Source: Sphingopyxis sp. (GTDB lineage Bacteria; Pseudomonadota; Alphaproteobacteria; Sphingomonadales; Sphingomonadaceae). From it: a DNA stretch of 64,000 nucleotides. The position numbers and the translations under genes were made by a program. Each line of letters starts with the position of its first letter. Within the stretch, counting starts at the first letter, position 1. Positions 34,747-48,454 of the stretch are shown here, in pieces. The notes under the pieces are model-generated. The model saw nothing but the letters and a program-made list of their open reading frames with translations, had not been told where the DNA came from and did not search any database. The stretch spans positions 124,001 to 188,000 of the forward strand of contig JASBSJ010000065.1 of assembly GCA_030148985.1 (NCBI GenBank). Direction: 5' to 3'.

Positions 34747-36615
34747 CTACGATGCGTCGCTCAAATGGGCTCTGATCGCGATCAGGGCGTCCGGATTTTC
34801 GATTGTTGGCGGGGTGCCCGCTTCCTCGCCATTCACCAGACGTCGTATCGCGGCGCGCAGGATCTTGCCCGACCTGGTTTTCGGGAGCGCATCGACGATG
34901 CAGACGCGTTTCAGCGCAGCGACCGGCCCGAGTTCGCCGCGGACGCGCGCGACGATCTCGCTTGCGAGCCGGTCGTTTTGGGGAGCGCCCGCCTTTACCA
35001 CCGCAAAGGCGCACGGCACCATGCCCTTGATCGGGTCATCCGCGCCGACGACGGCGCATTCGGCGACGGCCGGATGGCCCGCGATGATCTGTTCGATCTG
35101 CCCGGTCGACAGGCGGTGGCCCGCGACATTGATGATATCGTCGGTGCGGCCCATGATGTGCAGGAAGCCGTCGGCGTCGACATGACCCGCATCGCCCGTT
35201 TCGTAAAAGCCGGGAAAGCTCTCAAAGGATCGCGCGAAGCCCGCTTGATTGTTCCACAGGGTCGAAAAACAGCCCGGCGGCAAGGGTGCGGCGATCGCGA
35301 GATGCCCGTCGCCGGCACTGCCCGCTTTGCGCCCCTCGTCGTCGAAAAGCGCGAAGTGGAAGCCGGGGGCGGGGAAGCCCGCGCTACCGGCGCGGCGACG
35401 CGTATCGCCCAGGCCGAAACAGGTTGCGATCGCGGGCCATCCGAGTTCGGTCTGCCACCAATGATCGATCACCGGCCGTTGCAGATGCTGTTCCGCCCAT
35501 TCGATCGTGCTCGGGTCCGCGCGCTCGCCCGCAAGGAACATCGCCTTCAGGCGGCCGGCGCCGATTGCGCCGATGAAGCGGCCGTCGGGGTCTTCCTTGC
35601 GAACCGCGCGGATCGCGGTGGGGGCGGTGAAAAACACGTCGACGTCATGATCGACAATGGTGCGCCAGAAGGTTCCGGCATCGGGCGTCCCGACCGGCTT
35701 TCCCTCGAAGAGCAGCGTTGTGCATCCGGCGAGCAGCGGACCGTAGACGATATAGCTGTGGCCGACGACCCAGCCGACGTCGGACGCCGCCCAGAAGCTG
35801 TCGCCGGGCCGCACGCCATAGATGTTGGTCATGCTCCACGCGAGCGCGACGGCATGGCCGCCATTCTGGCGGACCACGCCCTTGGGCGTCCCCGTCGTGC
35901 CCGAGGTGTAGAGGATGTACAGCGGGTCGGTTGCTGCCACCGGCACGCAGCGCGCCGGTGCCGCGTCTGCCAAAGCTTCGGTCCAGTCGATGTCCCGATC
36001 CGCCGTCATCGGCGCCGGGCTAGCCTCGCGCTGGAGCAGGACGACGTGGTCGATCCGGTGCCGCGCCAGTTCGAGCGCTTCGTCGACGAGCGGCTTGTAG
36101 GCGACGATGCGACTGCCTTCGATGCCGCAGGACGCCGTGAGGAGCAGCTTCGGTGTCGCATCGTCGATGCGCTTTGCGAGTTCGGGTGGCGCGAAGCCGC
36201 CGAACACCACCGAATGAACGGCGCCAAGGCGCGCGCACGCCAACATCGCGAACAGCGTTTCGGGGATCATCGGCATATAGATGACGACGCGGTCGCCATG
36301 GCCGACGCCCAGCCGGGCCAGCATTCCCGCCGTCCGCGCGACCGAGTCGCGAAGCTCGGTAAAGGCGATGCGGCGGCGCGTCCCGGTTACCGGGCTTTCG
36401 TAAATGACGGCCGTGTCCTTGCCGCGCCCCGCCTCGACATCGCGATCGACGGCATTGTGGCACGTATTGAGCCGCGCGCCGGCAAACCAGCCTTGCCCCT
36501 CGACCCATCCGCGTTCGGGCGGCGTGTCCCAGTCGATCGCCGCTGCCGCACCCAGCCAGAAGGCGTCGGGGTCGGCAAGGCTGGCGGCATATATTTCGTC
36601 GTAGGTTGCATTCAT
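34747..36615 (-). CDS. prpE: Propionyl-CoA synthetase / acetyl-CoA synthetase-like
   Basis: A 622-residue AMP-forming acyl-CoA synthetase of the short-chain (Acs/PrpE) type. The N-terminal ACAS_N region (YDEIYAASLADPDAFW, NTCHNAVDRDVEAGRG) is followed by the P-loop YTSGTTGTPKG (about 243-255), ASDVGWVVGHSYIVYGPL, the ERAEQ-like WWQTELGWPA and a C-terminal TRSGKILRAAIR with the catalytic Lys. It makes propionyl- or acetyl-CoA from the free acid. It ends a three-gene leftward unit with a TonB receptor and a cupin, so it probably activates the carboxylate released by that pathway. Confidence 0.8.
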   Translation of the reverse strand: MNATYDEIYAASLADPDAFWLGAAAAIDWDTPPERGWVEGQGWFAGARLNTCHNAVDRDVEAGRGKDTAVIYESPVTGTRRRIAFTELRDSVARTAGMLARLGVGHGDRVVIYMPMIPETLFAMLACARLGAVHSVVFGGFAPPELAKRIDDATPKLLLTASCGIEGSRIVAYKPLVDEALELARHRIDHVVLLQREASPAPMTADRDIDWTEALADAAPARCVPVAATDPLYILYTSGTTGTPKGVVRQNGGHAVALAWSMTNIYGVRPGDSFWAASDVGWVVGHSYIVYGPLLAGCTTLLFEGKPVGTPDAGTFWRTIVDHDVDVFFTAPTAIRAVRKEDPDGRFIGAIGAGRLKAMFLAGERADPSTIEWAEQHLQRPVIDHWWQTELGWPAIATCFGLGDTRRRAGSAGFPAPGFHFALFDDEGRKAGSAGDGHLAIAAPLPPGCFSTLWNNQAGFARSFESFPGFYETGDAGHVDADGFLHIMGRTDDIINVAGHRLSTGQIEQIIAGHPAVAECAVVGADDPIKGMVPCAFAVVKAGAPQNDRLASEIVARVRGELGPVAALKRVCIVDALPKTRSGKILRAAIRRLVNGEEAGTPPTIENPDALIAIRAHLSDAS

Positions 36616-36619
36616 CGGG

Positions 36620-37012
36620 TCACGCGGCCGCCATCAGTTCCTCGAGCAATTTGTGATCGAGGATCGATGAAATCTCGCCCTTTTCGTCGAGAAAGGCAAC
36701 CGGCCCGTAGTTGGTGAAAAGCAGCTCGGTATATTCGGGAAAGGCCGTATGGTCGTGGATCACGTCGAGCGGTTCGTAACCATAGGTCCCGGCCCGTGCC
36801 TCGCCCATCCGATAGGTCATCCGGCCTTTGAGCACATAATATTCGCCTGCGCCGAGGTGAAGGTGGGGACCAAAGAAGCTGCCGGGCTGGGCGCGGAACA
36901 GCACGGTCCAGCGGCCCGTTTCGGCGCTCGAATAGAGGAGGGTGAAGTCGATCCCGTCGGCAAGCGTCGCCCATTTCATCATGTCGGGGGTGGTCAGATG
37001 TTCGTCCAGCAT
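36620..37012 (-). CDS. Cupin dioxygenase-like protein (2,4'-dihydroxyacetophenone dioxygenase type)
   Basis: A 130-residue single-domain cupin. FFGPHLHLGAGEYYVLKGRM supplies His50, His52 and Glu57, and DVIHDHTAF supplies the late His (86 or 88), a full 3-His-1-Glu metal site. Proteins of this size and pattern include C-C-cleaving dioxygenases acting on 2-hydroxyketones or diketones (2,4'-dihydroxyacetophenone dioxygenase, acetylacetone-cleaving enzyme). It is four bases upstream of prpE and 17 downstream of the TonB receptor gene. Cleaving a hydroxyketone into an acid that PrpE activates fits the context, but this is inference. Confidence 0.65.
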   Translation of the reverse strand: MLDEHLTTPDMMKWATLADGIDFTLLYSSAETGRWTVLFRAQPGSFFGPHLHLGAGEYYVLKGRMTYRMGEARAGTYGYEPLDVIHDHTAFPEYTELLFTNYGPVAFLDEKGEISSILDHKLLEELMAAA

Positions 37013-37029: not shown

Positions 37030-39246
37030 TCAGAAACGGAAGGAAAGTTCGGCGCCATAGGTCGCGCGCTCGCCATAATAGCGGGGCACGAACCCGAAGC
37101 CGCTCGTGTCGGTGGCATCAACGATATAGGCCTTGCCGGTGACATTTTTCGCCCAGGCGGCGAGTTCCCAACCCTGGTCGGGGTTGGCGAAGGCAAAGCG
37201 CAAGTTGAGCAGCCCATAGCCTTCGCCCGAGCTAATCAGCTCGTCCTCGGCATTGTTGTAATATTTCTTGCCCGTATAATTATATTCGACGCGCCAGCGC
37301 GTTTCGAAATCGCTGACGGGGATCGTCACCTGGGCAAAGGTCGACGCGGTGAATTTGGGCGCGCCCGGCATACGATTGCCCGAAAAGTCGCGCGGGTCGC
37401 CGGTCACCGGATCGATCGCGCCTGAGAGATAGTTTTTATATTTGGCATCGAGCAGCCCCAAGTTGAGCCCAAGGTCGAGCCAGTCGGTCGGCACCGCGGT
37501 CGCTTCGACCTCGATCCCCTTGATCGTCGCGTCGGCGGCATTGTCGAGCCCGAGCGTCGGCACCGCGCTGCCTGCCTGGCGATTGACCGACAGCACCTGC
37601 AGGTCGGTATAATCATAATAAAAGGCCGACAGGTTCAGCCGAAGGCGGCGGTCGAAGAGGGTGGTTTTCAGGCCGATTTCGTAGGAGGTCAGATATTCGG
37701 GATCGACCTGCGTGCGTTCGGCGACGCTCGTGATGATGCCGATGTTGAACCCGCCCGCCTTGAAACCGCGATCGATGCTCGCATAGGCAAGAATATCGTC
37801 GGTGACGTCAAGATCGGCCGCCACGCGCCACGAAAAGGATTTGAACGTATCCTTCAGCGCCGCGAACGGGACGAGCGGAACCGGCGTGCCATTGGGAATA
37901 TCGGTATCGAAATAGCCTTCGATCAGGTCGGCGCGGTGCGTCGCGCGCACCTTGTCGATCGTGTAGCGTCCGCCGAGCGTCAGCCGCAGCGTGGGGATGA
38001 TTGCATAGCTGGCCTGGCCATAGACGGCATAGGCCTTGTTCTTGCGCGTCGCGCGCGTGATCAGCGGTAACGCACCCTGCGCGAAGGTCAACTCGCCGAG
38101 CAGGTCGGCGTCGCTGTCGGCGTCGAGATCTTCCTGAAAATAATAGAGCCCGAGGATCGCGTTGAGCGGTCCGCGATCATAGGACAGCTGAAATTCCTGC
38201 GTGACCTGTTCGGCATCGGTCAGGAACACAATCTCGTCGATGCGCAGCGGCCCGCCGTCGACATCGACGCGATTATCGACCTCGCTCTTGTCGTACCCCG
38301 TCAGCGACCGGAACGAAAAATCGCCGAAGTCATGCGCGACGCTGAGGTTGACGAAGACATTGTCGCTGTAATTGCGCGACGGCCCGTTGAAGTTGAGCAG
38401 GTTCGCATTGTCGGGGAAGGGATCGGTATAGCCGAACAGGTCGGCGCCATTGATCGTCCCAACGGGCTTGTTTTCCAGATAGTCGCTGCGGTCGCGCCCG
38501 CCGCCGACCGAAAGGCGGATGTCGGTGTCGCTCGACGGCTGCCAGCGGATGATCGCGCGCGCCGCGGCCTCATCGACGTTGATCGCGTCTTCGCCCGTGA
38601 AGAGGTTGGTCTTTTCGCCGTCGCGCCGCCGGACGATCCCCGCGACACGCACCGACAGGCCGTCGGCGAGCGGCATGCTGGCTGCTGCCTCGGCCTCGAA
38701 CAGGTCGAACCGGCCATAGCCGACGCGGGCGTTGCCTTCGTAAACGTCGCCCGGAAGCTTGGAGAAAAACTGGATTGCGCCGCCGGTGGTATTCTTGCCG
38801 AACAAGGTGCCTTGCGGACCGCGCACGACCTCGATCCGCTCGAGATCGAACAGCGAGAAAATCTGGCTGCCGGTCGATGCGACGACCACATCGTCGCGAT
38901 AGATGCTGATCGGGCCGATCGACGAGGCGTTGAAGTCGTTGTTGCCGACGCCGCGGATGAAGATGTTAGGGACACCGCCGAAGGTCTTGATTTCCAGGTT
39001 GGGAACCTGATCGCCGATCGACAGGCTGTTGGTGAAGCCCGCTTCCCTGATCGCCGTGTCGTCGAAGGCCGTAACCGAAATCGGGACGTCCTGAAGGTTC
39101 TGGGCGCGCTTTTGCGCGGTCACGACGATTTCGCCGACACCGCCCTGCTCGGGCGCGTCCACATCCTGGGCGAGTGCAGGCGCGTTGGCGACGAGCGCGG
39201 CGGTTGCCGCCGCCATATAGAGCCCGGTCCGGAACTGGTTCGACAT
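37030..39246 (-). CDS. TonB-dependent receptor
   Basis: 738 residues from an ATG with GGAGGGG upstream (39246). A signal peptide (to APALAQ) is followed by the TonB-box-like EIVVTAQKR and a plug with DVPISVTAFDD, IFIRGVGNND and LERIEVVRGPQGTLFGKNTT (about 60-150). The barrel ends AELSFRF. The AQKRAQNLQDVPISVTA header marks the catabolic receptor class widespread in sphingomonads. It heads the leftward unit with the cupin and prpE and is divergent from the AraC gene, so it probably imports the substrate that AraC senses. Confidence 0.9.
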   Translation of the reverse strand: MSNQFRTGLYMAAATAALVANAPALAQDVDAPEQGGVGEIVVTAQKRAQNLQDVPISVTAFDDTAIREAGFTNSLSIGDQVPNLEIKTFGGVPNIFIRGVGNNDFNASSIGPISIYRDDVVVASTGSQIFSLFDLERIEVVRGPQGTLFGKNTTGGAIQFFSKLPGDVYEGNARVGYGRFDLFEAEAAASMPLADGLSVRVAGIVRRRDGEKTNLFTGEDAINVDEAAARAIIRWQPSSDTDIRLSVGGGRDRSDYLENKPVGTINGADLFGYTDPFPDNANLLNFNGPSRNYSDNVFVNLSVAHDFGDFSFRSLTGYDKSEVDNRVDVDGGPLRIDEIVFLTDAEQVTQEFQLSYDRGPLNAILGLYYFQEDLDADSDADLLGELTFAQGALPLITRATRKNKAYAVYGQASYAIIPTLRLTLGGRYTIDKVRATHRADLIEGYFDTDIPNGTPVPLVPFAALKDTFKSFSWRVAADLDVTDDILAYASIDRGFKAGGFNIGIITSVAERTQVDPEYLTSYEIGLKTTLFDRRLRLNLSAFYYDYTDLQVLSVNRQAGSAVPTLGLDNAADATIKGIEVEATAVPTDWLDLGLNLGLLDAKYKNYLSGAIDPVTGDPRDFSGNRMPGAPKFTASTFAQVTIPVSDFETRWRVEYNYTGKKYYNNAEDELISSGEGYGLLNLRFAFANPDQGWELAAWAKNVTGKAYIVDATDTSGFGFVPRYYGERATYGAELSFRF

Positions 39247-39462
39247 ATAATCCCCTCCATGGTCGCGGGCCAGCTGCATTGGATGGCCCTGTTCTCTCGC
39301 CTTCTAAGCACGGCGACGCGAACTGCATGTGCCGGAGCGGCGCAAATTTTGGTTGAGGGCGAACTGGCAGCCGTGATCGCGCGGCGCGAAAATCGGCGGT
39401 TTCCGGGCGTGAATTGTACGGATGCGCACAGGATTTTGTATGAGCGCGAACGCTTGTGGCGG

Positions 39463-39522: not shown

Positions 39523-40506
39523 ATGCTGCTGAGCGAAGAACGCTGGACGTCCGCTTCCCTGCCGCCACCGCGCCAATTGCCGGGGTTTCAGGAAGTGTTC
39601 GACCGGACCCATTTTCACTGGGGCCTGAGCCGCACCGGTTCGGATGCCTATCATGCCGAGCTGCGCCGCCGCGCGATCGACGATTTTGTCTTTACCGACA
39701 TCGTCTGCGATCCGGTGACCGGATACCGGACCCATGACGACGTCCGGCGCGGCGCCGACGATTATTTCTGCCTGCTCTATTTCGACGAGGGGAATTGCCT
39801 GCTCCGGCAGGGGCGCAATGAATCGGTCGTCCGCCCCGATACGATCGCCGTGTGGGACAGCACGCGCCCGGCGATGTTCCAGAACAGCGACCAGTTGCAC
39901 CAGCTGTCGATCATGATCCCGCATCGCATGGCGAAGACCATCGTTCCGGGCATCGAGGATATGTGCGGCCTGACCGTCGACGGGAGCGCGGGCCTGGGCG
40001 CGATCCTTTTGTCACATCTGCGTCAGATCCACCGCACGGTCGATACGGTGGCGCCGCAGGATCGCGCGGCGGTGCTGCGTGCGACGGTCGAACTGGTGGC
40101 CGCCGCCTTTCGACCCGAGCCCGAACGGCTTGCCGGATCCAGCTTTCGCCGCGCGCTGCTCAACCGGGTCCAGGATTATATCGTCGCGCATCTTGGCGAC
40201 CCGTCGCTTTCGGCTGCGACGATCGCCCAGGCGTTTCGTTTCAGCCCGCGTTATCTCCATCGGCTGTTCGAGGAGTTCGGCGTGACCGTCGGCACCTGGA
40301 TCCGCGAACGGCGGCTGCAATCGGCGCGCAGCGACCTCGCCGATCATGCGTCGGCGCATTTGAGCATTACCGAAATTGCGATGCGGCACGGCTTTGCCGA
40401 TGCGTCGCATTTCAGCCATGCCTTTCGCGGTGCGTTCGGCATGTCGCCGCGCGCGTGGCGGAGCGAAGCGGCGCGTCCGGCTGCGAGTTCCCTCCAGCCC
40501 AAATAA
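39523..40506 (+). CDS. AraC-family transcriptional regulator
   Basis: The protein has 327 residues. The N-terminal half (about 10-200) is an AraC-binding-like sensor domain (DDYFCLLYFDEGNCLLRQG, VWDSTRPAMFQ). The C-terminal about 100 residues hold the two HTH motifs: SLSAATIAQAFRFSPRYLHR and LSITEIAMRHGFADASHFSH, ending RGAFGMSPRAWR. The layout is that of FeaR/NphR-type activators of aromatic or amine catabolism. The ATG at 39523 follows AGAGGGG. An open frame continues far upstream but has no start signal and runs opposite the receptor. It lies between the two units it probably controls. Confidence 0.88.
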   Translation: MLLSEERWTSASLPPPRQLPGFQEVFDRTHFHWGLSRTGSDAYHAELRRRAIDDFVFTDIVCDPVTGYRTHDDVRRGADDYFCLLYFDEGNCLLRQGRNESVVRPDTIAVWDSTRPAMFQNSDQLHQLSIMIPHRMAKTIVPGIEDMCGLTVDGSAGLGAILLSHLRQIHRTVDTVAPQDRAAVLRATVELVAAAFRPEPERLAGSSFRRALLNRVQDYIVAHLGDPSLSAATIAQAFRFSPRYLHRLFEEFGVTVGTWIRERRLQSARSDLADHASAHLSITEIAMRHGFADASHFSHAFRGAFGMSPRAWRSEAARPAASSLQPK

Positions 40507-40578: not shown

Positions 40579-41355
40579 ATGGCCGACAGGCTGAAAGGCA
40601 AGATAGCGCTGGTGACCGGCGCGGCGCAGGGAATTGGGGCCGGAATAGCCCGCGCCATGGCGGCCGAGGGCGCGAAGATATTCGCCGCCGATATCAACGC
40701 CGCCGGGGTCGAGGCGCTGGCCGTCGACATCGGTGCCGAGGCGATGGCGCTGGACGTGACGCGCGAAGAGGACTGGAAGGCGGCGGCCGATCGCATCGGC
40801 GCCAAGCTGTCGATCCTCGTCAACAATGCCGGCGTCGAACTGGTCAAGCCGATGACCGATCACAGCCTCTCCGACTGGCGGTCGGTCATGGCGGTCAATG
40901 TCGATGGCCTGTTCCTCGGCTGCCGCACCCTGCAACCCTTGCTCGCGAGCGGCGGGGCCGAGGGCGCGCCGTCGAGCGTCGTCAACATCTCGTCGATTGC
41001 CGGACTCGTCGGATATCCGGATCAGCTTGCCTATAACACGTCGAAAGGCGCCGTGCGGCACATGACCAAGAGCCTCGCGATCGAATGGGCGGCGCACGCA
41101 TTGCCCATTCGGTGCAATTCGATCCATCCCGGCTGCATCCGCACGCCGATGCTCGAAATGGCCGTCGAGGGATGGGTCCGTGAAGGATCGATCCCCGCCG
41201 ACGATCCCTGGGGCGCGGTCGCCGCGCTCTGCCCGCTCAACGCCGTCGGGGCGCCCGCGGACATCGCCATGGGCGCGGTCTATCTCGCGAGCGACGAGGC
41301 GCGGTTCGTCACCGGGATCGAACTGGTGATCGACGGCGGATGGGTGGCACGATGA
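40579..41355 (+). CDS. Short-chain dehydrogenase/reductase
   Basis: A 258-residue classical SDR: TGAAQGIG near 14-21, NNAGVELVKP, NISSIAG with the catalytic Ser, YNTSK (Tyr and Lys), and the C-terminal VTGIELVIDGGWV. GGGAGG precedes the ATG. It probably interconverts a secondary alcohol and a ketone with NAD. The stop overlaps the E1-alpha start (ATGA), so it is translationally coupled to the E1/lipoyl genes. The product may be the ketone or hydroxyketone substrate of the E1 enzyme, as 2,3-butanediol dehydrogenase feeds acetoin dehydrogenase (analogy only). Confidence 0.87.
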   Translation: MADRLKGKIALVTGAAQGIGAGIARAMAAEGAKIFAADINAAGVEALAVDIGAEAMALDVTREEDWKAAADRIGAKLSILVNNAGVELVKPMTDHSLSDWRSVMAVNVDGLFLGCRTLQPLLASGGAEGAPSSVVNISSIAGLVGYPDQLAYNTSKGAVRHMTKSLAIEWAAHALPIRCNSIHPGCIRTPMLEMAVEGWVREGSIPADDPWGAVAALCPLNAVGAPADIAMGAVYLASDEARFVTGIELVIDGGWVAR

Positions 41356-42344
41356 GCGACGCACCGAGCAATCGCAGCGACCGGCTGTGGATGTACACCA
41401 CGATGGTCAAGAGCCGCTATTTCGAAGCCCTGATCAAGCCCGCCTATTTCGAAGGAAAGACGCCGGTTTTCAACATGGCGAAGGGGCCTTTGCCGGGCGA
41501 GATGCACCTCTCCGACGGGCAGGAACCCTGCGCGGTCGGCGTGTGCGCGCATCTGCGGCCCGGCGACACGGTCACCGCGACCCATCGTCCGCACCATGTT
41601 GCCATCGCCAAGGGTGTTGACCTTGATGCGATGGCGGCGGAGATTTTCGGCAAGGCATCGGGGCTGTCGGGCGGGCGCGGCGGGCATATGCACCTGTTCG
41701 ACGCGCGGGTGAATTTCGCCTGTTCGGGGATTATCGCGCAAGGCCTTGGCCCCGCCGTCGGCGCGGCGCTGGCGAGCAAGCTGCGCGGTGAGGATCATGT
41801 CGCCGTCGCGTTCCTGGGCGAAGGCGCCGCCAACCAGGGTGCCTTTCACGAGGCGCTCAACCTGGCCTCGGTGTGGAAGGTTCCGGCGGTCTTCGTTATC
41901 GAGGACAACAGCTATGGCATCTCGGTCGCGAAGCGCGATTGCACGGCGGTCGAGCGCAATTCGGACCGGGCCGCAGCCTATGCCATGCCCGGCCATTTCG
42001 TGGCGGGAAACGACGCCGACACGGTTTATCGCATAGCGGGCGAAGCGATTGCGCGCGCGCGGCGCGGCGAGGGGCCTTCGTTGATCGAGATCGAGACCTG
42101 CCGGCTCGAAGGGCATTTCATGGGCGACGCCGAGGGTTATCGGCCCAAAGGTGAGGTCGACCGGCTGAAAGCAGCCGATCCGATACCCGCCTACCGCCAG
42201 CGTCTGCTGGCAGACGGGTTCGAGGCGGGCGAACTCGACAAGGCCGAAGCCGAAGCGCGCGCGGCGGTCGATGCCGCGTTCGCCGCGGCGCGCGCCGCCG
42301 CCTATCCGCAGCCCGAGGAGGCCTTTGCCCATGTCTTCGCCTGA
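41352..42344 (+). CDS. Thiamine-diphosphate E1-alpha subunit (acetoin/2-oxoacid dehydrogenase type)
   Basis: A 330-residue E1-alpha subunit. The TPP/Mg motif is GEGAANQGAFHEALN (156-170) with EDNSYGIS (184-191). ATHRPHHVAIAKG (77-88) corresponds to the substrate/phospho-loop region of pyruvate dehydrogenase E1-alpha. GKASGLSGGRGGHMHLFD is the typical AcoA-like block. With E1-beta it would cleave or decarboxylate an acetoin-like hydroxyketone or a 2-oxo acid and pass the acyl group to a lipoyl arm. It is coupled to the SDR by ATGA and overlaps E1-beta by 14 bases. No E2 or E3 gene is nearby. Confidence 0.88.
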   Translation: MSDAPSNRSDRLWMYTTMVKSRYFEALIKPAYFEGKTPVFNMAKGPLPGEMHLSDGQEPCAVGVCAHLRPGDTVTATHRPHHVAIAKGVDLDAMAAEIFGKASGLSGGRGGHMHLFDARVNFACSGIIAQGLGPAVGAALASKLRGEDHVAVAFLGEGAANQGAFHEALNLASVWKVPAVFVIEDNSYGISVAKRDCTAVERNSDRAAAYAMPGHFVAGNDADTVYRIAGEAIARARRGEGPSLIEIETCRLEGHFMGDAEGYRPKGEVDRLKAADPIPAYRQRLLADGFEAGELDKAEAEARAAVDAAFAAARAAAYPQPEEAFAHVFA

Positions 42345-43380
42345 CGCTCCCACCGTGATCGCGCCTGCCCGCCGCCTCACCATCGCACGCGCGATTGCCG
42401 AGGCAATCGGGCAGGAGATGGAGCGCGACGCGACTGTCCTCGTGATGGGCGAAGACATTGCCAAGCTGGGCGGCGTGTTCGGCACGACCACCGGCCTGCT
42501 CGACAAGTTCGGACCCGAGCGCGTGCGCGACACGCCGATTTCGGAGACCGCTTTCATCGGTGCCGCGACCGGGCTTGCCGCGGCCGGGATGCGCCCGATC
42601 GTCGAGCTGATGTTCGTCGACTTCTTCGGCGTTTGCATGGACGCCATCTACAATCTGGCGGCGAAGCAATGCTATTTCTCGGGCGGGCAGGTGACCTGTC
42701 CGATGGTGCTGATGACGAGCGTCGGCGGCGGATATGGCGATGCCGGGCAGCACAGCCAGACGCTCTATGCCACTTTCGGCCATCTGCCGGGCCTCAAGGT
42801 CGTCATCCCGTCGAACGCGCATGATGCCAAGGGCCTGATGCTCGCGGCGATCCGCGACCCCAATCCGGTCGTGTTCATGTATCACAAGGCGTTGCAGGGG
42901 ATGGGCTGGCTCGGCACGGTGCAGCGATCGATCACCGACGTGCCCGATGCCGACTATCTGGTGCCGCTCGACAAGGCCAAGGTGGTGCGCGAGGGCAAGG
43001 ATCTCACATTGGTCGGGCTGGGGCTGTCGGTTCATCAGGCTCTCGACGCCGCCGAGCGACTTTCGGGGGAGGGGGTTTCGGCCGAGGTCATCGACCTTGT
43101 CAGTATCGCACCGCTCGACCGCCAGGCAGTGCGCGCGTCGGTGCGCAAGACAGGCCGCCTGCTTGCCATCGACGACGATTATCTGAGCTATGGCGTGGGC
43201 GCGGAGATCCTCGCGAGCGTCTGTGAAGCGGGTATCGCGTTGCGTTCGGCGCCGCAGCGCATCGCCTTTCCCGACATTCCCGTGCCCTTCACGCCCGTAA
43301 TGGAGCATTTTGTGCTGCCAAACGCCGACAAGATCGTCGCGGCAGTACGCCATATGATGGAGCCTTCCGCCAATGACTGA
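42331..43380 (+). CDS. Thiamine-diphosphate E1-beta subunit
   Basis: A 349-residue transketolase-like E1-beta (AcoB/PdhB type). TIARAIAEAIGQEMERDATV and LVMGEDIAKLGGVFGTT open the pyrimidine-binding domain, ETAFIGAATGLAAAGMRPI follows, and the C-terminal domain contains AEVIDLVSIAPLDRQAV. Start 42331 is set by GAGGAG 11-16 bases upstream, inside the E1-alpha 3' end. Together with E1-alpha it forms the alpha2-beta2 E1. The stop overlaps the lipoyl-domain gene by eight bases. All five genes from the SDR to the lipoyl domain therefore overlap, implying fixed stoichiometry. Confidence 0.88.
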   Translation: MSSPDAPTVIAPARRLTIARAIAEAIGQEMERDATVLVMGEDIAKLGGVFGTTTGLLDKFGPERVRDTPISETAFIGAATGLAAAGMRPIVELMFVDFFGVCMDAIYNLAAKQCYFSGGQVTCPMVLMTSVGGGYGDAGQHSQTLYATFGHLPGLKVVIPSNAHDAKGLMLAAIRDPNPVVFMYHKALQGMGWLGTVQRSITDVPDADYLVPLDKAKVVREGKDLTLVGLGLSVHQALDAAERLSGEGVSAEVIDLVSIAPLDRQAVRASVRKTGRLLAIDDDYLSYGVGAEILASVCEAGIALRSAPQRIAFPDIPVPFTPVMEHFVLPNADKIVAAVRHMMEPSAND

Positions 43381-43603
43381 CGTGACGATCCCGACCGGCC
43401 TCTGGAACGAAGGCGACGAGGCCGCGATTTCGGCGTGGCTCTATTCCAATGGGGATAGCGTCGCTGAAAACGCCGTCCTGGCCGAGATCATGGTGGAAAA
43501 ATCGAGCTTTGAGTTGCTGTCCCCGGCCGCAGGACGCCTGACGATATTGGTTGCGGCCGAAGAAGCGGTGCGACCGGGGCAGCTGGCCGCGCGCATCGAT
43601 TGA
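43373..43603 (+). CDS. Free-standing lipoyl-domain carrier protein
   Basis: Only 76 residues, a single biotinyl/lipoyl domain. AEIMVEKSSFELLSPAAGRL aligns exactly with the E2 hairpin AEIETDKATVEVEAPAAG, placing the modifiable lysine at Lys43. GDSVAENAVLAE and AAEEAVRPGQ are the flanking strands. It lacks the E1/E3-binding and acyltransferase domains of an E2, so it would be a mobile acyl or electron carrier like GcvH. Its start lies within the E1-beta 3' end and the next gene, a lipoate-ligase-like protein, begins three bases after its stop. Confidence 0.82.
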   Translation: MTDVTIPTGLWNEGDEAAISAWLYSNGDSVAENAVLAEIMVEKSSFELLSPAAGRLTILVAAEEAVRPGQLAARID

Positions 43604-43606
43604 CCG

Positions 43607-44299
43607 ATGGCATCAGCCCCGACGGTTGGAGCGCTCGCGGCCGCAATCGCTGCGGGCGCTGTCATAGAGGAGGGAGGCGGACGCGACGCCATCGAAGCGG
43701 ACGCCGAGCGGCTGGCGGCCTTGCTCAATGGCGATGCGGGCGCTCGCGGCCTCAGACTATGGACCAACCGGCAATGCCTTGTGACGACTCGCCGGATTGG
43801 GGCCCTGCCCAGCTTCGCGCGTGCCGCTGCTGCGAGCACCGCGCGAGGGTGGCCGGTGTTTGTAAGGACGAGCGGCGGAACAACGGTCGCTCACCGTCCA
43901 GGTACGCTGAACGTCAGCGTGTTCGACGCGTGGACCGACGACGGCCGTGATGTGAGGAAATCCTTCGAGGGATTTTGCCGTCGGCTTGTGGCCGTGCTGC
44001 GTTCGGCCGGAATCGATGCGGATTTGGGATGGGTGCCCTTCAGCCATTGCGACGGGCGGTTCAACCTCGCGGTGGCCGGCCGCAAGATCGGCGGGACAGC
44101 CTCGCTTGTCCGCCGCCGCGGCACCACCATAGCGATGCTCGCGCACGCTTCAATCTGGATAGAGGGCGATGTGACGGTCGATTTGCAGGCAGTCGAGCGG
44201 TTCGAACGCGATATGGGGTTGGGCGTCGCCTATGACCGCCGTGCGCACGCGAGCATTTGCGATGTGGTGACCATGCCTGAGGCTCGGGCAGTGCGCTGA
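43607..44299 (+). CDS. Lipoate-protein ligase A-like protein
   Basis: A 230-residue member of the biotin/lipoate A/B ligase fold. VFVRTSGGTTVAHRPGTLN (85-102) matches the RRxSGGGxVxHxxGxLN motif. DGRFNLAVAGRKIGGTA (149-165) carries the conserved Lys160 that contacts lipoyl-AMP. It is shorter than full LplA (about 340), lacking the C-terminal accessory domain, as in LipM/octanoyl-transferase-like or short ligases. Directly following the free lipoyl-domain gene, it is probably the dedicated modifying enzyme. Whether it uses free lipoate or transfers octanoate/lipoyl from another protein is unknown. Confidence 0.75.
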   Translation: MASAPTVGALAAAIAAGAVIEEGGGRDAIEADAERLAALLNGDAGARGLRLWTNRQCLVTTRRIGALPSFARAAAASTARGWPVFVRTSGGTTVAHRPGTLNVSVFDAWTDDGRDVRKSFEGFCRRLVAVLRSAGIDADLGWVPFSHCDGRFNLAVAGRKIGGTASLVRRRGTTIAMLAHASIWIEGDVTVDLQAVERFERDMGLGVAYDRRAHASICDVVTMPEARAVR

Positions 44300-44367: not shown

Positions 44368-45255
44368 TCAGGCCCGTTTGCGCGTCGGCGTCTTGGCGGA
44401 TGTTTTTCTGCTTGTCTTTCCTTTCCGGGCCGAGGGCTTGCCAGTCGTGCGTTTCGCCGGGGTGCGCTTGCCGTCGCCGATCGATTTCTTGAGCGCCGCC
44501 ATCAGATCGACGACATTCGAGCCGCCTGCGGCTGCTTCGGCGTCGCCCTCGTCGAGGTCGAGCGTCTTGCCCTTCTTCTTGCGCTCGATGAGATCGCGCA
44601 GCGCGTCCACATAGCGATCGTGAAAATCGCTCGCGTCAAAGCTGCCCGTCTTCTTGTCGATCAGCGTCGTCGCAAGATCGAGCAGTTCCTCGTCGGGGTC
44701 GCCTTCCGGAATGTCGCGAAAATAGCTCGCCGCCTTGTGAACCTCGTCGGCATAGCGCAGGGTCTCCATGACCAGCCCGCGCCCGCACGGCTTGAGGCTC
44801 ACGACATGCTCGCGCCCGCGCATCGCGAGCTGGCCGAGGCCCGCCTTGCGCGTCTGGCGCAGCGCCTCGCGCAACACCACAAATGCCTCTTCGGCGAGAT
44901 CGTCGGCGGGAACGACATAATAGGGCTTTTCGAAATAGATCATGTCGATGTCGTTCGCCTCGACGAATTGGGTGAGTTCGAGGGTCTTGCGGCTTTCGAG
45001 CCTCACGCCCTCGATCTCCTCCTCGTCGAGAAGCACATATTTGTCCTTGGCATATTGGAAGCCCTTGACGATCTCGTCGACATCGACCGGCCCGATCCCG
45101 GGCACGACCTTTTCATAACGGACGCGCTTGCCCGACGGTTCGTGAATCTGGTTGAACGCAATGGTCGCACCGCTCTTCGTCGCCGAATAGACCTCGACCG
45201 GAATCGAAACGAGCGCCAGTCGGATCTGGCCTTTCCAATAGGGGCGCGCTGCCAT
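44368..45255 (-). CDS. ku: Ku DNA end-binding protein (NHEJ)
   Basis: A 295-residue bacterial Ku. The N-terminus PYWKGQIRLALVSIPVEVY is characteristic. The core RVRYEKVVPGIGPVDVDEIVKG, FEKPYYVVPADDLAEEAF and LVMETLRYADEV follow. The C-terminal tail (about 240-295) is Lys/Arg-rich and low-complexity, as in the minimal plus extended tails that recruit LigD or bind DNA. An AGGAGA site precedes the ATG. Ku homodimers bind broken DNA ends and recruit LigD. It is the last gene of the ligD-xth-ku unit, 27 bases downstream of xth. Confidence 0.93.
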   Translation of the reverse strand: MAARPYWKGQIRLALVSIPVEVYSATKSGATIAFNQIHEPSGKRVRYEKVVPGIGPVDVDEIVKGFQYAKDKYVLLDEEEIEGVRLESRKTLELTQFVEANDIDMIYFEKPYYVVPADDLAEEAFVVLREALRQTRKAGLGQLAMRGREHVVSLKPCGRGLVMETLRYADEVHKAASYFRDIPEGDPDEELLDLATTLIDKKTGSFDASDFHDRYVDALRDLIERKKKGKTLDLDEGDAEAAAGGSNVVDLMAALKKSIGDGKRTPAKRTTGKPSARKGKTSRKTSAKTPTRKRA

Positions 45256-45282
45256 CCTTGCTCTCCTTATGGGCCTGTCCCC

Positions 45283-46092
45283 TCAATGCGCGGCGCCGCG
45301 CGACGTTCCCTTGGCGCGGCGCGCGCGAAGCTCGGCCCACGCAGGCGCATGATCGCTCGTCTTTTCCCATTCGCGCGGCCGCCGATCCACATCAGCCGCG
45401 GCCAGCAGCTTTGCCGCAGGGCCGTTGAGTAGAAGATGGTCGATCCTGAGACCCGCATCGCGCTCGAAGGAACGGCGCCAATAATGCCAGAAGCTGTAGA
45501 TCGTCTCCCCCGGATGGAGATGGCGGATGGCATCGGTCCAGCCCTGATCGAGGAGGCGCTGATAGGCGGCGCGCACCTCGGGCGCGAAAAGCGCGTCCCC
45601 CCGCCAGCGGTCGGGCGCATAAACGTCGATGTCGGTCGGCATTACGTTGAAATCGCCCGCGACGACAACGGGCGCGTCGAGTTCGATGAGCGTCGCGAGA
45701 TGCGCTTCAAGGCGATCGAACCAGCGCAGCTTATAGTCGAACTTGGGCCCGGGGCGCGGATTGCCATTGGGCAGATAGAGGCCGGCGACGAGGATACCGT
45801 CGATGGCCGCCTCGATATAGCGGCTCTGATCGTCCGCCGCGTCGCCGGGTAGGTGGCGCCGCGTTTCGTGGATGGCGCCGCGGCGGCTCAGTATGGCAAC
45901 ACCGTTCCAGCGCGGTTGGCCGCGCCAGATCGCTTCATAGCCGGCATCCTCGATCGCCTGCGCGGGGAATTTCGCCTGCGGGGCCTTCAGCTCCTGGAGG
46001 ACGACAATATCAGGCTTCGCCAGCTCCAGCCATTTGAGGAGAATGGGAAGGCGGCCGTTGATCCCGTTCACATTATAAGTGGCGATCTTCAC
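45283..46092 (-). CDS. xth: Exodeoxyribonuclease III (AP endonuclease family)
   Basis: A 269-residue ExoIII/APE-type nuclease. The start GTG at 46092 overlaps the ligD stop (GTGA). Motifs: ATYNVNGI at 4-11, LQELKAP with the metal ligand Glu34, LVAGLYLPNG, AGDFNVMPTDIDVY, LRIDHLLLN and the terminal SDHAPAWAEL. It removes 3'-blocking groups and cuts abasic sites. Its position inside an NHEJ operon, coupled to a LigD without a phosphoesterase domain, suggests it supplies 3'-end processing during end joining; this role is inferred. Confidence 0.9.
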   Translation of the reverse strand: MKIATYNVNGINGRLPILLKWLELAKPDIVVLQELKAPQAKFPAQAIEDAGYEAIWRGQPRWNGVAILSRRGAIHETRRHLPGDAADDQSRYIEAAIDGILVAGLYLPNGNPRPGPKFDYKLRWFDRLEAHLATLIELDAPVVVAGDFNVMPTDIDVYAPDRWRGDALFAPEVRAAYQRLLDQGWTDAIRHLHPGETIYSFWHYWRRSFERDAGLRIDHLLLNGPAAKLLAAADVDRRPREWEKTSDHAPAWAELRARRAKGTSRGAAH

Positions 46093-47945
46093 AGGTCGGG
46101 CAGATCCTGCTCGGCGCGTCCCCAACCGGCGAGTGCCTTCGAGTGCGCGCGCTTGAGCAAGGTCGCAGCGTCGGTGACGTGAAAATGCGAGGGTTTGTCG
46201 ATCGTCGCCATTTCCTTCCATGTGAGGGGCGCGGCGACGGGCGCGCCTTCGCGGGCGCGCGCCGAATAGGGCATCACCGCGGTCGCGCCGCGCTGGTTGC
46301 GCAGATAGTCGACGAAAATTTTTCCTTTGCGCTTCGCCTTGGGCAACGCAGCTGTAAATTTGTCGGGGTCGGCCTGCGCGGCAGCGAGCGCAAGACGGCG
46401 GGCAAAATCCTTGACCTCGTCCCAATCGGCGCGCGGCACGAGCGGCGCGATCACATGCACCCCCTTGCCGCCGGTCAGCATCGGAAAGCTTTGCAGGCCG
46501 AGCGACGTCAGAATCTCGCGGAAGCGAAAGGCGGCGGCGCGCACAGCCGCGAAGTCGAGCCCGGTGTCGGGATCGAGATCGAAGACGAGACGGTCGGGCT
46601 TTTCGATATCCTCGATGCGCGCGCCCCAGCCGTGAAATTCGATCGTTCCCATCTGGACGCAGCTCAGCAGCCCTTCGGGCGTGTCGACATAGATATAGGG
46701 CTCGGTCTCGCCGTCCTTCTCCTCGATCGCGACATGCTTGACCGCTTCGCCGAAGCTTCCTGTGTCATGCTTCTGGAAGAAGCATTTTTTGGCACGGCCC
46801 TGCGGACAGCGCACGAGGCTGATCGGGCGCGAGCCCGCCCAGGGGAGCATCACCGGCGCCATCGCGGCGTAATAGTCCGCGAGGTCGCCCTTGGTGACGC
46901 CTGCCTCGGGAAAGATGACGCGGTCGCGGCTGCTGATCGGTACCGCCGCCGGTTCGCTTGCCATGGTGACATCCTCCTCGGTTTCGAACTCGATCGATTG
47001 CGCTCTCTTGTCTTCGCGCAGCCCGAGATAGCTGGGATGGCGCAGCGTTCCCTTGCGTGTGCGTTCGGCATAGGCGATTTCGGCAACAAGTCGGGGTTCG
47101 ATCCAGCGCGCATCGCGTACTTCTGCGCGCGGCGCGTGTACCGTTGGACTTCTGCGCGCGAGCGGTTTCATTAACGCCTCGAGACGGCGCAGCTCGGCCG
47201 CGTCGAAACCCGTCCCGACCTTGCCAGCATAGCGCAGCGTGCCATTCTCGTGGAGGCCAAGGATCAGCGAACGAAAGCTGCGCGCCTTGTCCGAGGGCGT
47301 CCAGCCGACGATCACAAACTCCTGACGCCGGACGCACTTGATTTTAAGCCAGTTGCCCGAGCGTGCTCCGACATAGCGGCTGCCGGCGCGCTTCGAGATG
47401 ACCCCTTCGAGCCCCGCCTTGCAGAAGCGTGCGAGAAGCTCCTCGCCGCCGCCCTCGATATGTTCCGAATAGCGGATGCGGCCCGTGCCGGGGACAATCG
47501 CTTCGAGACGCGCCTTGCGTTCGATCAGCGGCCGGCCCGTCAGATCCGCCCCATCGAGTTCGAGCAGATCGAAAGCATAATAGTCGATCACCGAGGCGTC
47601 GCTTTTGAGGGCGTTCTGTAGCGCCTGGAAATCGGAACGCCCATCGGCGTCGAGAACGACCGCCTCGCCGTCGATCAGCGCGCTTTCGACGTCGAGCGCG
47701 GCCGCGGCGGCAAGCAGCGGCGCAAAACGCTCTGACCAGTCGAGCCCCGAGCGCGTATAGGCGCGCGCCTCGCCGCCGCCGACCGCAACGAGCAGACGGT
47801 ATCCGTCATATTTCATTTCATGCAGCCAGGCGTTGCCCGAAGGGACGGTGTCGACGAGCCGCGCGAGCTGCAGCGGCCGGAAAGCAGGGGGGCGTCCGGG
47901 CCGGGTGGCGCCTTTGATGCGGGCGGGAACGCTGCGTCGGGCCAT
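46089..47945 (-). CDS. ligD: LigD: ATP-dependent DNA ligase plus polymerase domain
   Basis: A 618-residue NHEJ ligase. The N-terminal ligase domain (about 20-310) has the adenylation Lys45 in EMKYDGYRLL, IDGEAVVLDADG, LEGVISKRAGSRY and NWLKIKC. The C-terminal polymerase/primase domain (about 330-618) has VIFPEAGVTKGDLADYY, the catalytic acidic pair in VFDLDPD, GGKGVHV and DYLRNQRGATAV. The 3'-phosphoesterase domain found in many LigDs is absent. The start is taken at ATG 47945, where homology begins; in-frame codons up to 48302 are judged non-coding. It heads the operon with xth and ku. Confidence 0.9.
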   Translation of the reverse strand: MARRSVPARIKGATRPGRPPAFRPLQLARLVDTVPSGNAWLHEMKYDGYRLLVAVGGGEARAYTRSGLDWSERFAPLLAAAAALDVESALIDGEAVVLDADGRSDFQALQNALKSDASVIDYYAFDLLELDGADLTGRPLIERKARLEAIVPGTGRIRYSEHIEGGGEELLARFCKAGLEGVISKRAGSRYVGARSGNWLKIKCVRRQEFVIVGWTPSDKARSFRSLILGLHENGTLRYAGKVGTGFDAAELRRLEALMKPLARRSPTVHAPRAEVRDARWIEPRLVAEIAYAERTRKGTLRHPSYLGLREDKRAQSIEFETEEDVTMASEPAAVPISSRDRVIFPEAGVTKGDLADYYAAMAPVMLPWAGSRPISLVRCPQGRAKKCFFQKHDTGSFGEAVKHVAIEEKDGETEPYIYVDTPEGLLSCVQMGTIEFHGWGARIEDIEKPDRLVFDLDPDTGLDFAAVRAAAFRFREILTSLGLQSFPMLTGGKGVHVIAPLVPRADWDEVKDFARRLALAAAQADPDKFTAALPKAKRKGKIFVDYLRNQRGATAVMPYSARAREGAPVAAPLTWKEMATIDKPSHFHVTDAATLLKRAHSKALAGWGRAEQDLPDL

Positions 47946-48454
47946 GGGATCCAGACGCGGAAGGCGCCGCTTCGTTCCGCTGGTCTGGCATGATTCGCTT
48001 GGAACGGCAGAGGCGGGGCCGGAGAGGGTTCGGCTGTGTGAGCAATCAGATCGACCAGCAATGCGCCGGACGCCAAAAAGGCCGCACCATTCAGACGCGG
48101 CCTTTCCGGCATTGTTATGCTCCCCCCTCGACGAACCGGGTCGCGCGATTCGCCGAAGACGGTTTGAAGAGATAACCATTTGTGCACGAACGTCAATTCC
48201 ATTGACAATACAATGGGAACCATTTTGGGACAGGTGAAGATGGGACGATCGCAGGTGTCCGATTGGCGCGTGGCCCGGCATCCTTGGACATTGGCCGCGC
48301 ACGTTGGCGTAACAGGCCAGGTTGGCCCATTGTTTCGAACCGAGCCGATGGTACGAAACGAACTCTCGACGTCTCGCAAATTATCTGATCCAGAGGCGCG
48401 TATGTTGCCGGGGGCGCCGACGCGTTTACCGCACCGAAGTCAGGGAGAGCCAAC
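47946..48454. other. Divergent promoter region of ligD and acyl-CoA dehydrogenase genes
   Basis: There are 509 bases without a supported gene. Structures seen are a hairpin AAAGGCCGC/GCGGCCTTT at 48077-48105, an inverted repeat TTCCATTG/CAATGGGAA at 48197-48219 and the longer inverted repeat at 48332-48359 (annotated separately). TTGACA at 48203-48208 lies inside the second repeat and could be a -35 element. Confidence 0.5.
48332..48359. promoter_or_regulatory. Inverted repeat, candidate operator of acyl-CoA dehydrogenase pair
   Basis: GTTTCGAACC and GGTACGAAAC are 10-base arms (one mismatch) around an 8-base spacer, ending 96 bases before the TTG start at 48455. The size and symmetry suit a TetR-type repressor, which commonly controls acyl-CoA dehydrogenase genes. 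No regulator gene is adjacent. Confidence 0.5.

Follow-up and report, generated by a model that had tools for sequence, protein, structure and literature searches.

The usual teaching on enzymes that depend on a lipoyl group is of E1-E2-E3 machines with E2 as their core, the acetoin dehydrogenase complex (AcoA/AcoB/AcoC with an E3) among them. Free lipoyl proteins as such are already known: proteins with a lipoyl domain only make up one of three archaeal classes in the passages cited here from PMC3904984, and the cited parts of PMC6067878 and PMC10332631 describe free lipoyl carriers of sulfur oxidation with dedicated modifying enzymes (LbpA and sLpl(AB)). In a 64,000-nucleotide stretch of a Sphingopyxis sp. 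genome (contig JASBSJ010000065.1, positions 124,001 to 188,000; hereafter the window) we describe a module that consists of ordinary parts of lipoyl-dependent dehydrogenases, namely E1-alpha, E1-beta, a free-standing lipoyl domain (Lip) and a protein of the LplA/LipL fold (Lpl), with an uncommon, recurring absence of E2. We read it tentatively, at somewhat less than even confidence, as a catabolic module, probably of acetoin dehydrogenase type, that descended from a system with a split E2, lost the E2 catalytic subunit and has its Lip unloaded by a housekeeping E2.

Compared with the acetoin dehydrogenase complex, the module has E1 subunits of the same family, and its Lip matches the acetoin E2 model PRK14875 over the lipoyl part; here, however, the lipoyl domain is a separate protein of 76 aa and the locus is without acyltransferase or E3. 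The archaeal lipoyl-only proteins share the single-domain form, and the cited passages of PMC3904984 draw no tie from them to an E1 pair, an E2 catalytic domain (E2cat) or a modifying enzyme. As in sulfur oxidation, a free carrier goes together with a likely dedicated modifier, whereas LbpA is GcvH-like and has hdr-like genes for neighbours (PMC6067878 and PMC10332631, passages cited) and Lip is like the lipoyl domains of E2s and has E1 genes beside it. No hdr gene was seen among the neighbouring genes scanned, no search aimed at hdr genes having been made in the window.

The module is a tightly packed plus-strand operon (40579-44299) of five genes whose ends overlap or nearly touch. A short-chain dehydrogenase (SDR; 40579..41355; PF13561, PF00106) overlaps the start of E1-alpha (41352..42344, 330 aa, PF00676 E=5e-67), and E1-beta (42331..43380; PF02779 1.5e-41, PF02780 2e-32) keeps both histidines of QHSQ ... 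GHLPG, which we take to be catalytic. The gene of E1-beta overlaps that of Lip (43373..43603, 76 aa, PF00364 35.1 bits, cut-off 22.1) by 8 bases, and 3 bases separate the latter from Lpl (43607..44299, 230 aa). An earlier note on this DNA, made from the letters alone, had placed these four proteins, their overlaps and the 3-base gap in the same way, and Pfam assigns the proteins as it did; the note had also put Lys43 of Lip (codon 43499..43501), the predicted lipoylation site within MVEKSS, at a hairpin turn, with which the structural model of Lip (mean pLDDT, the predicted local distance difference test, 94.1; Lys43 between strands 35-41 and 44-49) and its Foldseek matches to lipoyl and biotinyl domains agree. 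Lys43 is invariant in our alignments A2 (14 rows) and A4 (7 rows), and a scan of Lip with PF01597 (GcvH) gave no match. A role as biotin carrier was rejected, the motif being EKSS against AMKM in a biotin domain of the same genome and the operon being without a carboxylase gene. Lys43 would carry the lipoyl group, and Lip would be charged by the E1 of the module. Of the features that make up a 2-oxoacid or acetoin dehydrogenase complex, the E1 pair with its motifs and the lipoyl domain with its hairpin lysine were found; an E2 acyltransferase of its own (at the locus, or as PF00198 in seven genomes described below) and a dedicated E3 were not. The ratio of nonsynonymous to synonymous substitution rates (dN/dS), calculated over six pairs, is low in all four genes (0.03-0.17 for E1, 0.10-0.29 for Lip, 0.10-0.22 for Lpl), which argues that the E2-less module is maintained and not decaying; together with syntenic clusters in other species, these values (0.03-0.29) rule out a chance set of open reading frames.

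Eleven loci, here called class A (the window, L019, L020, L021, L050, L051, L149, L150, L151, L152 and L154), have SDR, E1-alpha, E1-beta, Lip and Lpl without E2cat and also share an AraC-family regulator and a cupin similar to the dioxygenase Dke1; in L151, Lpl lies 3.5 kb off on the opposite strand. We infer that they are sphingomonad loci, L050 being named Sphingomonadaceae and L051 Sphingorhabdus. No E2 or E3 gene was found in the window cluster, and probes of the PF00198 type and of the alpha/beta-hydrolase kind detected no acyltransferase at the window locus. An E2cat relic between Lip and Lpl was rejected on the 3-base gap, and relocation nearby on the lack of an E2cat in 11-20 kb around 17 bacterial E2-less loci that bear Lpl (the contig of L195 ends 1.3 kb past Lpl). 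The genome of the window is a metagenome-assembled genome (MAG), 73% complete, in which PF00198 finds three proteins (frames of 416-450 aa); for the statement that a dedicated E2 is absent genome-wide we rely on relatives whose genomes are near-complete. Nine class A genomes were searched, for acyltransferases of PF00198 only. Seven of them (G000, G007, G026, G027, G281, G294 and G380) encode three PF00198 proteins each, in frames of 353-548 aa, which are taken as housekeeping E2s; G007 and G281 are single contigs, 99% and 100% complete, and G026, G027, G294 and G380 are 95-99% complete. G289 has a fourth such protein inside its own ordinary E1-E2 cluster, and G357 has eight, one of them short, on another contig, 29-35% identical to split E2cats, with no E1 or Lip match in the 14 kb around it. 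As for E3, the redox motif was not found in 26 loci and a section of the window; G000 and G007 each encode three Pyr_redox_dim proteins, none at the module, and two of the three in G007 lie within 3 kb of full-length E2 genes.

Beside Lip, 31 of the 54 free-Lip modules examined carry a free PF00198 catalytic subunit of about 230 aa (the split E2), which in both cases scanned consists of PF00198 alone (190 bits, and 193 bits in Gemmobacter). Such modules occur in Gemmobacter, Aminobacter, Sphingomonas paeninsulae, Paracoccus, Phaeobacter, Mameliella, Roseibium, Rhodococcus, Pseudomonas, Marinobacterium and haloarchaea. Those annotated in Gemmobacter, Paracoccus, Phaeobacter, Roseibium, Rhodococcus and Halobaculum resemble the window in E1-beta (49-76% identical), free Lip and often Lpl, and differ from it in keeping the PF00198 subunit. 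Lpl often follows the split E2cat; Rhodococcus has lipA instead, and the haloarchaea are without Lpl. Our searches of open-access literature brought up no description of split-E2 or E2-less modules; Haloferax volcanii reportedly has 2-oxoacid dehydrogenase operons with a lipoyl domain called 'unattached', and the free lipoyl protein would then be less novel. Lpl was found in 4 of 60 genomes searched, E1-beta in 18 of 396 genomes of the order at 1e-100 (the own genome included in both counts) and, at 1e-90, in 10 of 385 genomes at the level of the class and 7 of 398 at that of the phylum, with the own genome counted in each and G575 in both. The viral contigs searched held no relatives.

On a tree of concatenated E1 sequences, ten class A loci group together (95/93) within a 14-row clade (100/98) that also includes the remaining one, L154, and the split-E2 loci L153, L041 and L156. 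A second E1 tree of 45 rows (omitting L018, L029, L030, L044, L046, L048 and L073, and L208 and L209, which were fetched later) implies at least six changes of E2cat presence, a count that does not itself give their direction. Since E2-less loci nest among split-E2 loci, the tree suggests that the E2-less form arose by loss from a split-E2 system and is not an unrelated kind. Outside the order, E2-less modules were found in L192-L194 (G678, G754, G581), L195 (G575) and L196/L197 (G1088, G1114); in L192-L194 the AraC gene is divergent and cupin, E1-alpha, E1-beta, Lip and Lpl follow in a row on one strand, the cupin directly before E1-alpha. Streptomyces L046 and Haladaptatus L188, L208 and L209 have no E2cat adjoining Lip, a statement about these loci and not about whole genomes. 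L155 (8524-14460) and L157 (8747-14693) each hold two facing E1-Lip modules, one with E2cat and one without. Among loci found by E1-beta and fetched wide, Lpl is present in all 12 E2-less loci besides the window (L020, L149-L152, L154, L192-L197) against 5 of 9 with E2cat; loci retrieved through Lpl itself were not counted as evidence for this link, and L155 and L157 (no Lpl) and the 4-kb L143 and L144 stand outside the count. The picture drawn by the earlier note is kept in its core, a cluster without E2 or E3 in which a free-standing lipoyl carrier accompanies the two E1 subunits and a likely modifier, conserved across several genera, and is qualified in its scope. The E2-less combination recurs in class A and outside the order. 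The note had named an E2/E3 pair encoded by homologous clusters as what would refute its idea; of such a pair the E2 is there, as the free subunit, in those 31 free-Lip relatives, which goes part of the way to that refutation.

The residue following the lipoyl-lysine (K+1; Ser44 of Lip, codon 43502..43504) changes with E2cat in the bacterial modules. In the first set it is Ser or Thr in 11/11 class A Lips, in the first modules of L155 and L157 and in L046, and Val, Ile or Ala in the 24 E2cat-bearing modules first examined. This rule, noticed on the first set, was then fixed as a prediction before new loci were fetched. All new bacterial loci obey it (Ser or Thr in six of six E2-less, another residue in two of two E2cat-bearing); the new haloarchaeal loci obey it where E2cat is present (5/5 not Ser or Thr) and fail it where E2cat is absent (0/3), so that 13 of 16 obey overall. 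The exceptions L188, L208 and L209, on Haladaptatus plasmids, have E1-alpha, E1-beta and Lip with Val at K+1, contrary to the bacterial pattern. The new-locus count omits L177, L178, L180 and L189 (no Lip match), L175, L176 and L185 (Lip in lipoyl/alpha-beta-hydrolase frames, measured as L198-L200), L179 (not measured), L190 and L191 (annotated as full E2) and L203 and L204 (Lip and E2cat matches on one strand, frames not measured). With all Lips pooled and kinship ignored, Ser or Thr stands at K+1 in 20 of 23 E2-less and 0 of 31 E2cat-bearing cases. Among independent pairs differing in E2cat on the 45-row tree, five go from Val, Ile or Ala to Ser or Thr, none the opposite way and one shows no difference (p = 0.0625, the smallest value that five pairs can yield). 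Within L155 and L157, the two Lips of the same genome differ, Val against Thr. Lpl as the cause of the switch was rejected, because 16 of 27 E2cat-bearing loci have Lpl, yet no E2cat-bearing Lip has Ser or Thr, and because the first modules of L155 and L157 have Thr without an Lpl match; the cupin was rejected as well, L153 and L158 having cupin and E2cat and keeping Val and Ile. In the pyruvate dehydrogenase (PDH) complex of B. stearothermophilus, the contact of the lipoyl domain with E3 is nearly confined to the two residues flanking the lysine, and the residue beside the lysine was thought to specify E1 (passages cited from PMC6270654). By analogy with these contacts, the switch may mean that the carrier changed its partner.

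Concerning the modifying enzyme, Lpl has the PF21948 catalytic scaffold (59.2 bits against a cut-off of 27), and its best PDB profile matches are 2p5i (88.7 bits) and 2p0l (75.3 bits), followed by ligase-family structures at 48.6 bits or less; its model (pLDDT 92.6) gives 2p0l and 2p5i as the top two Foldseek matches. We take both to be LipL-type structures; the title of 2p0l is lipoate-protein ligase A. Cys148 (codon 44048..44050), a candidate acyl-transfer cysteine, aligns with the C of SYCPGSYDL in 2p5i, presumably the catalytic residue of LipL, and both structures share this cysteine and a GxLN motif with Lpl. Cys148 and Lys160 of GRKIGGTA (codon 44084..44086) are invariant in alignments A1 (15 rows) and A3 (27 rows), though most rows of A3 come from a genome scan whose pattern contained Cys148. 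Among NCBIfam models, the octanoyl-[GcvH]:protein transferase NF053589 ranks best at 42.4 bits, far under its cut-off of 400; with LplA the protein shares the scaffold and the invariant Lys of KxxGTA, and differs in scoring 23.7 bits against the TIGR00545 cut-off of 280 and in the second (accessory) Pfam domain, which was not found. What the earlier note had called ligase-like is of the LplA/LipL fold; the nearest model is of LipL type, a cysteine is conserved and the second ligase domain was not detected, with scores far under every curated NCBIfam cut-off; unlike LipL, Lpl also adjoins an E1-Lip operon. A review warns, in the passage cited, that the sequence by itself does not tell what a member of this family does (PMC7253636); for Lpl, the role that seems likeliest is transfer to Lip in the manner of LipL. 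In L192 (1676-6149) the E2-less module adjoins glycine-cleavage genes (gcvT, gcvH and the first gcvP gene by Pfam), a possible lipoyl donor for such an enzyme. In Rubrivivax L073, an Lpl homologue follows E1-alpha, E1-beta and an E2 of lipoyl and alpha/beta-hydrolase parts. A genome scan for Lpl, with a search pattern that contained the CDG motif, gave at least 586 matches; near 73 of the best 80 of these there was no E1, Lip or E2cat match, and homologues of Pseudomonas, Neptuniibacter, Pseudoalteromonas and Aeromonas (L050-L129, among the same best 80) are mostly without these neighbours. The lipoyl synthase gene lipA lies in or near split-E2 clusters, annotated in L044, L045 and L048 and as a tblastn match in L091 and L126; private lipoylation genes thus recur.

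Upstream of the operon lie genes on which the account of the earlier note was silent and which travel with the module: an AraC-family regulator (39523..40506, plus strand; PF12833, PF14525), found, like the SDR, in 11/11 class A loci, and, on the minus strand, a TonB-dependent receptor (37030..39279; PF00593, PF07715), the Dke1-like cupin, a putative beta-diketone dioxygenase (36620..37012, 130 aa), and an acetate/propionate--CoA ligase-like protein (ACS; 34747..36615, 622 aa; Pfam AMP-binding and ACAS_N). The best PDB match of the cupin is Dke1 (3bal, E=3.9e-20); 2,4'-dihydroxyacetophenone dioxygenase comes far behind (E=0.026). The residues aligned with Dke1 H62, H64, E69, Y70, R80, E98 and H104, whose roles are given in the cited passages of PMC4019311, are identical in the window cupin, as they are in 14 of 15 other loci; they comprise the three-histidine iron site (H62, H64, H104) and four further active-site residues. 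L151 differs at two of the seven, and L158 has a second, partial copy without most of them. Dke1 converts acetylacetone into acetate and methylglyoxal and accepts many beta-diketones (PMC4019311, PMC7226712, as cited); unlike for Dke1, activity and substrate of the cupin are predictions. The cupin is present in 14 of 17 bacterial E2-less Lpl-bearing loci against 2 of 27 E2cat-bearing loci, the two being L153 and L158, which have the same cupin, SDR and ACS genes. ACS, whose best NCBIfam model is PrpE (685 bits, under the cut-off of 955), exceeds 200 bits in six of the 11 class A loci, the window included; among the other five, L050 and L051 end before its expected place and L151 has a 31% homologue. 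The TonB receptor is 78-95% identical in eight of the ten other class A loci and 63% in L154, and L151 has only a 41% copy elsewhere. As this divergent cupin keeps all seven Dke1 residues checked, beta-diketone catabolism appears the likeliest setting. As to the type of E1, the GHFMGD loop of E1-alpha is like GHFEGD, the loop of L073 and L199 (two loci with E2s made up of a lipoyl and an alpha/beta-hydrolase domain), and differs from GHSMSD and GHSTSD in the PDH and the branched-chain 2-oxoacid dehydrogenase (BCKDH) of the same genome; we assume an HFxGD loop to be typical of acetoin dehydrogenase E1-alpha.

In the pathway we propose, the TonB receptor would take up the substrate and the AraC regulator would control both divergent transcription units. 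With oxygen, the cupin would split a 1,3-diketone into an acid and a vicinal dicarbonyl, which the SDR could interconvert with a hydroxyketone, and the acid would be activated by the ACS ligase. E1 would cleave the C-C bond of the dicarbonyl or of the SDR-derived hydroxyketone and load the acyl group onto Lip at Lys43, on a lipoyl group put in place with the help of Lpl by a transfer like that of LipL. As the module has no E2 of its own, three ways off Lip are left for the acyl group: a housekeeping E2, hydrolysis or an unlinked acyltransferase. Most likely a housekeeping E2, that of PDH or of BCKDH, would move it to CoA in trans at its catalytic core, with re-oxidation of Lip by a shared E3. 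We prefer this route because the Lip of split-E2 relatives already meets its E2 in trans and because the repeated change of E2cat suggests easy compensation.

A number of observations weigh against this reading. Two housekeeping E2 lipoyl domains of the same genome have Ala at K+1 (TDKAT) and E2-less Lips have Ser or Thr, whereas convergence on the housekeeping form would predict Ala. The acetoin type is weakened by the NCBIfam ranks, in which Lip scores better with the E2 models of 2-oxoglutarate dehydrogenase (OGDH) and PDH than with the acetoin one, E1-alpha is best matched by PDH E1-alpha (269.9 bits, cut-off 393.9) and E1-beta just passes the PDH E1-beta subfamily model (321.4 against 321), and by L191, annotated as acetoin dehydrogenase, with its loop GHSRSD; moreover, the E1 of the module is only 40-49% identical to that of the lipoyl/alpha-beta-hydrolase modules. 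The window cupin is on the strand opposite to the operon, and L195-L197 gave no cupin match, so that the module is not tied to one pathway; the type of substrate is weakly supported.

Other outlets for the acyl group have to be considered. A lipoyl-dependent enzyme without any E2, whose E1 would cleave hydroxyketones or diketones oxidatively onto a diffusible carrier, with the acyl group leaving as free acid or to a non-E2 acceptor, E3 recycling the carrier and Ser/Thr beside the lysine re-specifying the partner, and which would have evolved repeatedly, is a possibility that we regard as rather doubtful. Slightly more doubtful still is its specific form in which hydrolysis of acyl-Lip, either spontaneous or through a thioesterase, yields a free acid that ACS activates, Lip serving mainly as an oxidant that gives its electrons to the shared E3. 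That the ACS gene travels with the module, that E2cat comes and goes on the tree as though dispensable, and that K+1 turns to Ser or Thr in five of six contrasts at a residue in contact with E3 in B. stearothermophilus (PMC6270654, as cited) would fit; hydrolysis, however, wastes the thioester, and since ACS also stands beside the E2cat-bearing L111, L153, L158 and L160 and was not found in 19 kb around L192-L194, its substrate may be the acid that the cupin releases. An unlinked acyltransferase, of the alpha/beta-hydrolase kind or another family, seems unlikely to unload Lip, even though lipoyl plus alpha/beta-hydrolase E2s adjoin related E1s (L198-L200, and L073 by our reading of its sequence), the genome-wide search was limited to PF00198, and a PF00756 esterase-family gene of G007 (L020, 12622-13533, minus strand), which also speaks against the housekeeping route, lies about 3 kb beyond Lpl. 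Two alpha/beta-hydrolase E2 domains used as probes matched nothing at E 1e-3 in the 17 bacterial E2-less Lpl-bearing loci or the whole window, and the esterase gene was checked in G007 only, its place not being shown to be conserved.

Two further explanations would change the nature of the module, and both seem very improbable. Lip could be a carrier like LbpA or GcvH for other chemistry and no acyl carrier, as the sulfur-oxidation precedent would allow (PMC6067878, passages cited); its gene, however, overlaps that of an E1-beta with both motif histidines, its matches are to E2 lipoyl domains and PF00364 and not to PF01597, and split-E2 relatives put it beside an E2 catalytic subunit. The least probable of all, in our estimate, is an artefact by which an E2 gene exists and was missed or has moved: the incomplete MAG and the short E2 of G357 on its other contig lend this some colour, but the six genomes at 95-100% completeness have only three PF00198 proteins each, and the G357 protein has neither close identity to split E2cats nor E1 or Lip around it.

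Beyond the module, the next gene 3' of the operon is Ku, on the minus strand, and by Pfam an exonuclease/endonuclease-family gene and a LigD-type ligase/polymerase gene complete with it a bacterial end-joining locus (44368-48302). Farther on (59901-61397, minus strand), a gene of the RPE65/carotenoid-oxygenase family near a thiolase gene perhaps marks a further catabolic cluster, again by Pfam. In Shinella L048 (1016-10558), the split-E2 genes lie in a sugar/polyol cluster with sugar kinases, glpD, an aldolase and lipA, which suggests that related E1s act on sugar derivatives.

The module suggests a bacterial pathway for the breakdown of beta-diketones, a setting for which the cited passage of PMC7226712 describes, in A. 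johnsonii, an acetylacetone route with a glyoxalase handling the methylglyoxal. It also suggests a role for a protein that carries the annotation 'hypothetical' in several relatives. For enzymes whose E2 core is taught as the basis of the machine, the series from split E2 to no E2, in which E2cat changes at least six times on one tree and the residue beside the lipoyl-lysine switches, offers natural experiments both on the need for E2 and on the choice of partners by a free lipoyl carrier.

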